Shown: piece after piece, positions 55,234-64,000 of the stretch
How positions within the stretch are numbered: position 1 is the stretch's first letter
Layout: each line of letters starts with the position of its first letter
From: Branchiostoma lanceolatum
Lineage: Eukaryota > Chordata > Leptocardii > Amphioxiformes > Branchiostomatidae
NCBI RefSeq assembly: GCF_035083965.1
Contig: NC_089740.1
Span: 10,104,596-10,168,595 of the forward strand
Direction: 5' to 3'
Length of the DNA: 64,000 bases
The notes under the pieces: generated by a model
Database searches by the model: none
Told to the model about the DNA's origin: nothing
The model's input: the letters and a program-made list of their open reading frames with translations, nothing else
Program-made: the position numbers and the translations under genes

Positions 55234-58200
55234 ATGGGCAACCTGATCGGGACCCTTGAATTGCTGGGATGGAGCAACCAGACGTTGACACCAAACCGTG
55301 GGGAGGATTTCGTGGAGGACAACATCGGTTTCCCGTGTCGTGTGGTGACCGGAAACAAGGCCGTGCAGTCCGTCTTCGACATCGACCTTTTCAGAAAGGA
55401 AGAGTTCCATTTTGGCGTAACAAGAATCCGGAAGGACTTCACGGAAGGTGTTTGTCCAAGCGTTACGTCTAACGGAAAGATCCACGAGAAGAATAAAGGG
55501 TTTTTGATAGAAGTCATGTCAAAGGCTTACGGAGAGATCCTGGCATCAACCGCATCGGCCGTGCTTTCCAACATCTCTAAGTGGGGAAGTAAACCAAGCG
55601 ACTTCGAGGTAAAGTTGATGGTATTGGTGGTGGATGCTTTACTACCAACCGTCTTCGGGAAATCAACACCACCTTTTAACGCTGAAGAAATCAACCTTTA
55701 TGCAGATGGTGCAATTGAATTAAGGTCAGGCATCTTGGAAACAATAGCAGGAGAAGATCTCGACAAGACTCGCGGGGCATTGCTGTCTACCCTTGGGAAA
55801 ATAAAGACATCAGAGAGGTAAGTGGAGAGAGGGAAATAGCGTTTAGCATCTCGTTTCTCATAACTTCTCCGGTCCATTTCAATGTTTTCTAAATGTAGTT
55901 AGTCAACTAATCATGTAATTTGTATTCAAAGATACCGCCAGCTGATGGATCTTGGCAAGTCGCATGGATTGGGAGAAGAAGAGGCAACGGCCCAACTGCT
56001 CTTCTCGGTGATGTTCAACGGGCTTCAAGGCATCAAGGGAAATCTGCTCACATCCTTCGCCCGCTTGGACACCCTCAGCGCGGAGGACCGAGAGGAGCTG
56101 CGGGAGGAAGCGCTTGCTGCCCTGAAGAAACACGGAGGCCTGACTCGCCAGGCCCTGGAGGAAATGCCGAAGATTGAGAGCTTCGTCTTGGAAGCGCTGC
56201 GGGCGGGCCCCAGCCCAGACTTCTTTAGCACCATCGCGACGCGCTCAACGACTGTCAAGTACACAACGGAGAGTGGTCAACGTGAAGTGGAGGTAGGTGT
56301 TCACCGAAATCAAACAATTTCCGGTTTAGTCCAATCTACTTTGGAATTACATGTATGTTCGTTTCAAGTTGTGATGGCTTCCGTCTGTCAAACTCTGCGC
56401 TTTGCAATGTTAGGAATTTATTGAGTCTCTTATTGATCTTTGTGAACAGTTTCTAGCTTAATCGCTTTCTAGTCTGATTATGTTTACCTTCACAGAAGTA
56501 AACATATTGTTTTTGCTCATTTCCTCTTCCTCTTCTTCTCCGCACAAATAAAAAACATGAATATCTCCAAAACTAGAGCTTGGAATAACTTGAAATCCAG
56601 CAAGCTGGTAGGCCTGTACATACGACACTGCACCATGGTCGTACTGTCCCATATAGATGCAAAATAAATGATTTTATGCGGTAAAAACTGGTGAAAAAAC
56701 TATTTTTAAGCTCAAAATAGAACTTTAGAATCCCTTTAGAACCCGTTTGGAACTTAAGAATCCCTTTAGAACCCATTCGGAACTTTAGAATCACTTTGGA
56801 AAATTATGAGAATTCATACGTCTCTTCTTGACTTATCCTGTATCATGGACGTGTGCCAATGCATCAACTAAATCAAGTCCTTGACTAAATAAAACACTTT
56901 ATCCTACCTGGTAGAAACGTAAAGATAGACCATGTGAAGGTAAACATTCTGCATTTGCTCGCAAATGTTGCCCCTCTAGTTATTGGATTTCTTTGTTCTG
57001 TTCTTTCCAGATCAAGGAAGGTGAGCGTGTGTATGCCAGTTCCTACTGGGCACTGAGGGACCCTGCTGTCTTCGACAAACCGGAAGACTTCGTGTGGCGC
57101 AGGTTTCTCGGCCCTGAGGGTGAAGCTCGCAGGGAACACCACGTCGTCTTTCACGGACGACACACCGATACACCCGCGACCAACAACCACATGTGCCCAG
57201 GTAAAGACGTCGCTTTGTCCATGATGAAAGGCAGCATCGCCATTTTTAACACCTTCTTTGGATGGGAACTCCAGGAGCCGCCGGAGTGGACGGGGACGAA
57301 GATAGCTCGCTTTGGACAACCTGACAAGGAAGTGAAAATCAAGTCATTCTGGGTACAGCGTTCTGAAGACTTGAAAGAGATCTTTCCACACCAGTTTGAC
57401 GACATCATTGGCGTAAGTAAACAAAGTGTACATTTATCACATTATAAAATATTCTAGCTTAATTGTATGTAACAAAGTCTAGGCAACATGCAGCAGTAGC
57501 AACATCAAAACGATGTCGATTATGAACTTTCATATTCCGCTTTACAGCTACACAATGGTGCTCATTACTGTTACGGTAACAGTTCTACTTCTGTGCATTT
57601 TGGATTCATCCCTTGAGGGTAATCGATTCTCCAAGTTTTGTCACTGCGCTGTTCCGGAATTTCACATGCGCATGGGCAGGAAGACCTGTTGATGATAAAT
57701 GATGCTGTATAATGGTGGTTTTTCCTCCTTTAATACTAGTAAAACTTCGAGCATGTACCTCATTCCCGGATAATTGTTCATATTGTTTTATAATCGTACG
57801 TGTATTTAAAGGGAATGGATCGGGTTAATGGCATCGACGTACTCGTCAAAACGAAGACTGGGACGTATCACGGCGCCGGAACAAATGGAAACGTCTACAT
57901 CCGTCTCTATGACGACAAAGGCCGTCAGTCCCGTGAGTTGCAGTTGGATGTGTGGTGGAAAGATGACTTTGAAAAAGGAAGCGACGGAGAGTGAGTAGAT
58001 TCCTGCTATTTGTAAGACATTATTTAGTTTAGTCACTAAAAAAAGTCACTAAAATTGCAAAGAAGAGATTTGGACGGAAATGTTTTGATTAACGCATCAC
58101 ACTTTACTTCATGTTTCATCGTTGTTGTTTTTTGTTTTCTTTGTTTCTGTGACTACTGGGGAGTTTGATCACTATTCCTCACAACGTCTTGAGCTTAGCT

Positions 58201-64000: not shown

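Follow-up and report, generated by a model that had tools for sequence, protein, structure and literature searches.

Plant CYP74A enzymes are separate proteins fed by separate lipoxygenases (LOXs), and the fungal fusions of a dioxygenase (DOX) to a P450 run in the order DOX then P450. To our knowledge, little is established about which proteins animal CYP74-clan P450s partner with or which substrates they use in vivo. For coral AOS-LOX, excerpts of one study assign residues 1–373 to AOS and residues 374–1066 to LOX (PMC5793058). For Branchiostoma belcheri, excerpts of another describe CYP440A18 as a stand-alone protein of 458 residues, encoded by 5 exons, with the I-helix motif VMFN and its asparagine at position 223; CYP440A18 covers 76% of BfEAS, so the latter may carry extra residues (PMC8124189). 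Together, the excerpts available from six papers name catalase-LOX and fungal dioxygenase-P450 fusions, without a P450-LOX fusion (PMC8124189, PMC10813956, PMC10864609, PMC13049297, PMC11719350, PMC5793058). Nor is a P450-LOX fusion described in the open-licence PubMed Central titles or abstract openings searched; a prior record may exist in subscription papers or database annotations.

The locus analyzed here lies at the end of the window, by which we mean the whole 64,000-nt stretch of Branchiostoma lanceolatum DNA. Exons were rebuilt from the DNA, and splicing of three P450 and 13 PLAT-lipoxygenase exons gave a stop-free frame of 932 codons. Its parts are listed below, after LOX1, a stand-alone paralogue of the fused LOX (LOX2).

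40159-50272, + strand: LOX1, stand-alone PLAT-LOX; 17 coding exons, 681 residues from ATG 40162, ends NAISI-stop
55234-55817, + strand: P450 exon 1; start ATG at 55234
55932-56292, + strand: P450 exon 2; I-helix VMFN (Asn224) and ExLR helix (E282)
57011-57412, + strand: P450 exon 3; heme loop with Cys377; ends GGC/GTAAGT, phase 0
57413-57811, + strand: junction intron; 399 bp, in-frame stops
57812-57990, + strand: first exon of the LOX, where PLAT begins; GGA precedes ATG 57815, which could be a start of its own
58319-58488, + strand: LOX exon; PLAT
58884-59020, + strand: LOX exon
59465-59509, + strand: LOX exon
59867-59989, + strand: LOX exon
60224-60321, + strand: LOX exon (fusion exon 9); very weak donor AAA/GTTTGA
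60725-60860, + strand: LOX exon
61304-61402, + strand: LOX exon
61860-61956, + strand: LOX exon; first iron-ligand histidine H809, HLGFTH begins
62491-62608, + strand: LOX exon; second iron-ligand histidine H814
62851-62943, + strand: LOX exon; Ala852 at the presumed R/S-deciding (Coffa) column
63275-63335, + strand: LOX exon
63906 to beyond 64000, + strand: LOX exon, truncated where the window ends

In the fusion protein, Pfam placed p450 at residues 249–402 (E 5.5e-11), PLAT at 460–566 (E 2.2e-21) and Lipoxygenase at 656–929 (E 2.1e-40), each above its curated cut-off, and found no further domain at 0.001. With no N anywhere in the window, the joint is free of sequence gaps. The final LOX exon continues past the window end, placing the LOX C-terminus beyond 64000. 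A sequence-only reading of this DNA had described a CYP74-clan P450 and a PLAT-LOX in one frame: three and 13 exons in one uninterrupted phase, joined in phase 0 by a GTAAGT donor and an AG acceptor, with no stop between the halves. The rebuilt exons reproduced every element of this description, and PDB matches and Pfam agreed with the identity of both halves. The same reading held the locus to be a single gene. The joined frame speaks for that claim, but the LOX, like LOX1, carries an ATG of its own right after the acceptor, which keeps two-gene and read-through explanations alive.

Judged by its matches and motifs, the P450 half is a member of the CYP74 clan. Six PDB matches were obtained in all. 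Three were CYP74A sequences, at 1.8e-22 to 2.5e-22: CYP74A2 (3dam) came first at 1.8e-22, and 2rch, a CYP74A allene oxide synthase, scored 1.9e-22. The next match, a non-CYP74 protein, followed at 3.6e-06. In the I-helix, FSVMFN(224)GLQG aligned with FAVCFNTFGG of CYP74A2, an asparagine replacing the oxygen-activating threonine motif. The lengthened heme loop with Cys377 (then PGKD) aligned to GPETETPTVGNKQCAGKD, and the ExxR motif is E282-A-L-R. The I-helix asparagine is residue 224 here and residue 223 in CYP440A18, which supports the start at 55234 (PMC8124189, excerpts). From this asparagine, 225 residues lead up to the junction (449 – 224), versus 235 to the end of CYP440A18 (458 – 223), an excess of 10 that assumes no insertions or deletions between the two P450s. 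These 10 extra residues, and 5 exons versus 3, would fit a B. belcheri P450 that ends on a short stretch of its own, as far as the excerpted source describes it. In the B. lanceolatum protein, a tail of roughly 16 residues follows the P450 fold in exon 3, as judged by eye.

The nearest solved chains of LOX2 were 11R-LOX (3vf1) and coral AOS-LOX (2fnq, 3dy5). Of the five iron ligands expected in a PLAT-LOX (three histidines, an asparagine or histidine, and the C-terminal isoleucine), both histidines of the HxxxxH motif are kept (HLGFTH, H809 and H814), and the others lie beyond 64000. One aligned column holds alanine in both LOX1 and LOX2 (Ala852) versus glycine in the 8R and 11R enzymes (2fnq, TIGRK; 3vf1, TLGRN). 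We take this column to be the Coffa determinant, with alanine meaning an S-product; LOX2 is thus predicted to yield the S- rather than the R-hydroperoxide. Excerpts of PMC5793058, which also name the iron ligands, give glycine as the Coffa determinant in most coral AOS-LOXs examined. An early BLAST search had suggested an extra LOX exon of 12 residues near 63138; this candidate was rejected, having no donor after it and being absent from LOX1.

LOX1 itself goes unmentioned in the sequence-only reading. At iron-ligand positions that in LOX2 fall beyond the window, it has QHAAVNF and a terminal isoleucine; it aligns to 3vf1 over nearly its whole length. Across 482 codons, LOX1 and LOX2 share 58.1% amino-acid identity, with dN of 0.34 and dS of about 1.8 (near saturation), indicating lasting constraint on the LOX. 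Exon lengths are equal in nine of the 12 complete exons common to both. Their first coding exons also begin alike, with TTTCTAG/GCA ATG in LOX1 and TTTAAAG/GGA ATG in LOX2. Given this shared layout of acceptor, 3 nt and ATG, the acceptor now used for joining is probably older than the fusion and originally lay 3 nt ahead of a LOX initiation codon. An old acceptor in that place would offer a simple route to fusion, as any upstream donor in phase 0 would suffice; with the ATG kept, LOX2 could still start alone. No credible P450 remnant was found ahead of LOX1: apart from the P450 gene, the window yielded five tblastn matches, with E of 0.57 to 9.4, which we take to be chance.

Between LOX1 and the P450, 51794-54888 holds diverged direct-repeat families, with units of 61–121 nt and copies 70–98% alike. 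Farther upstream, the + strand carries a Hisat_C (histidine N-acetyltransferase C-terminal) domain (17068-17640, 5.7e-32) and a BTB-BACK-kelch gene (19234-20829); 21463-21771 gives a further, weak kelch match. On the – strand are a Formyl transferase piece (890-1204, 3.1e-12), presumably from a methionyl-tRNA formyltransferase, and a weak WD40 match (26586-26876, 0.00072) below the curated cut-off.

The P450 and LOX halves meet in phase 0, at donor GGC/GTAAGT and acceptor TATTTAAAG/GGAATG. We scored splice sites with leave-one-out matrices built from the fusion gene and LOX1. Among 31 donors the junction one ranked 20th, and among 32 acceptors its partner ranked 18th, making both ordinary for these two genes. 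Counted over the window's + strand, the score of this donor is reached by about 94 of 3921 GTs and that of this acceptor by about 283 of 3754 AGs (counts derived from printed fractions). Within the junction intron, acceptors at 57548 (8.98) and 57583 (5.44) score above the one at 57812 (5.19); 57548, the highest-scoring acceptor of this intron, is apparently unused. We regard 57812 as probably a real splice site, since LOX1 has a counterpart acceptor at the same place.

Read-through chimeras usually join a penultimate exon to a second exon, a pattern that speaks for the alternative that survives best: a read-through (conjoined) pair. Here, the P450 would have its own last exon (beginning, for example, at 57548), the LOX would have its own 5' untranslated exon and the ATG at 57815, and the fused mRNA would be one product among separate ones. 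The first LOX exon contains an in-frame ATG 3 nt from its start, with G at –3 and +4, and the acceptor-3 nt-ATG layout occurs in LOX1 without a P450. Splicing to the strong acceptor at 57548 would give an in-frame ending of 22 codons, and the 10 residues by which CYP440A18 is longer after its asparagine (if no indels intervene) look like just such a short extra ending (PMC8124189, excerpts). Yet on a codon scale derived from the fusion gene and LOX1, the ending opened at 57548 scores –9.3 bits, which is intron-like (coding 5% point –1.2; intron median –8.5). Moreover, the 399-bp junction intron, and with it the whole interval between the halves, contains no AATAAA or ATTAAA; the minor polyA-like hexamers in it are AGTAAA at 57416 and 57738, TATAAA at 57443 and GATAAA at 57694. 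We consider a read-through pair unlikely.

The same codon scale bears on another explanation, that a CYP440-type P450 and a PLAT-LOX are two ordinary neighbour genes, in phase by chance. The LOX ATG lies about where aligned animal LOX chains begin, a chance phase match has a 1-in-3 expectation, and the P450 frame past the donor reaches a stop after only 14 codons. But these 14 codons score –16.8 bits, with GC of 21% (coding 5% point –1.7; intron median –5.6), whereas the 20 codons that close P450 exon 3 are coding-like at +3.4 bits. P450 coding therefore seems to end at the GTAAGT donor, which needs an acceptor to join. Fifteen AG sites from 57430 to 57812 were tried as continuations of the P450 frame, and only 57812 opened a clearly coding-like one (60 codons, +19.9 bits). 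Eleven of the others scored negative, among them 57583, whose 39 codons (–10.1 bits) are not coding-like; two opened no codon and one a single codon (+0.8). These scores are support, not proof, for the 57812 joint, because the scale is small and was trained on the same genes, LOX exons included. Taken with the score of the read-through codons, they make two independent neighbours quite improbable.

It is very hard to credit a failing or regulated gene, in which the weak donor of fusion exon 9 (AAA/GTTTGA at 60319-60330, with a T run after; score 0.46, rank 30 of 31, versus GTAAGT at the equivalent place in LOX1) would leave intron 9 in, to give a 704-residue P450-PLAT protein that ends KFDFF-stop before the iron site and lacks a working LOX, since the downstream exons are intact and conserved, with the nine of 12 lengths shared with LOX1 that a dead gene would not long keep, and since the donor of LOX1 exon 15 scores just as poorly in the same matrix (0.1).

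We think it likely that the fused P450-LOX protein is the main product of the locus. The locus would then encode a two-enzyme oxylipin synthase in a single chain. Its C-terminal PLAT-LOX is predicted to dock on the membrane and to convert a polyunsaturated fatty acid into an S-configured hydroperoxide. At its heme, the N-terminal CYP74-clan P450 would split the O-O bond, using no reductase, NADPH or further O2, and would rearrange the hydroperoxide to an epoxyalcohol and/or an allene oxide. The hydroperoxide might conceivably be handed from LOX to P450 in cis, in which case tethering the two may bring some benefit. As for origin, a P450 gene set before a LOX copy may have lost its own ending, and its phase-0 donor would have been joined to an acceptor already in place, 3 nt ahead of the LOX ATG.

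If the fused protein is made, the fusion names the partner of the P450 (LOX2), so that its product class becomes predictable in a chordate. It would also let the effect of tethering both steps be tested. Further, it would represent a convergent domain fusion with a traceable route, traceable because the unfused LOX sister sits a few kilobases upstream. The chain would link a peroxide-making enzyme to one that reshapes peroxides into signal-like molecules, a pairing similar to the coral one but with an unrelated partner.

For comparison, we scanned prokaryotes with a LOX core alignment, limited to two peptide patterns. This gave 20 loci, all from cyanobacterial genera by title. Measured between stops, 19 of the 20 LOX frames span 464–578 residues; the remaining one is a fragment of 48. 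The cyanobacterial lipoxygenases of loci L001-L019 match the coral LOX query segment at 37–42% identity, and with 464–578 residues their frames are seemingly too short for a fused hemoprotein. The P450 of the fusion, used as query, had no match at 1e-3 in the 20 loci, so that no counterpart of the fusion appeared there in this single-query search, which distant P450s could escape; tblastn with this P450 against plasmids gave no match at 1e-5.

Among known systems, plant CYP74A allene oxide synthases (2rch, 3dam) are the closest solved relatives of the P450 half, at 1.8e-22. The domain order here, P450 then LOX, is the reverse of that in the fungal DOX-P450 proteins. These fungal enzymes (LDS, DOX-AOS and DOX-EAS) resemble the present case in fusing a fatty-acid dioxygenase to a self-sufficient hydroperoxide P450, but their dioxygenase is a cyclooxygenase-like heme enzyme rather than a non-heme iron LOX, and the P450 subfamilies differ (PMC13049297, excerpts). 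No cyclooxygenase-like heme dioxygenase domain was found on the fusion protein by Pfam at 0.001. Within Branchiostoma, CYP440A1 (BfEAS, ACD88492) and CYP440A18 (BbEAS/AOS, gene LOC109483426) are CYP74-clan P450s, like the P450 half. CYP440A18 shares the I-helix VMFN, with its asparagine one position earlier, a likeness known from motif and position only; it is stand-alone, whereas here three P450 exons lead into a LOX (PMC8124189, excerpts).

The catalase-related AOS-LOX and HPL-LOX proteins of corals and cyanobacteria share the overall plan, an N-terminal hydroperoxide-converting hemoprotein and a C-terminal LOX (PMC5793058, PMC8124189, both in excerpt). The analogy with the coral catalase-LOX, drawn from the sequence at the outset, proved apt in its detail: in 3dy5 too, the join falls directly before the first PLAT strand, and residue 11 of the query aligns to residue 378 of that chain. 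Two differences stand out. The hemoprotein here is a P450 rather than a catalase relative (Pfam at 0.001 found no catalase-related domain), and the Coffa column holds alanine rather than glycine, predicting S- rather than R-hydroperoxide. On balance, we lean towards this chordate fusion of a CYP74-clan P450 to an S-type PLAT-LOX being a further independent dioxygenase/hydroperoxide-hemoprotein chain, after catalase-LOX and the fungal heme-dioxygenase-P450, made at an acceptor before a LOX start that was kept as an internal methionine. As such, it is likely a new pairing within a known design.
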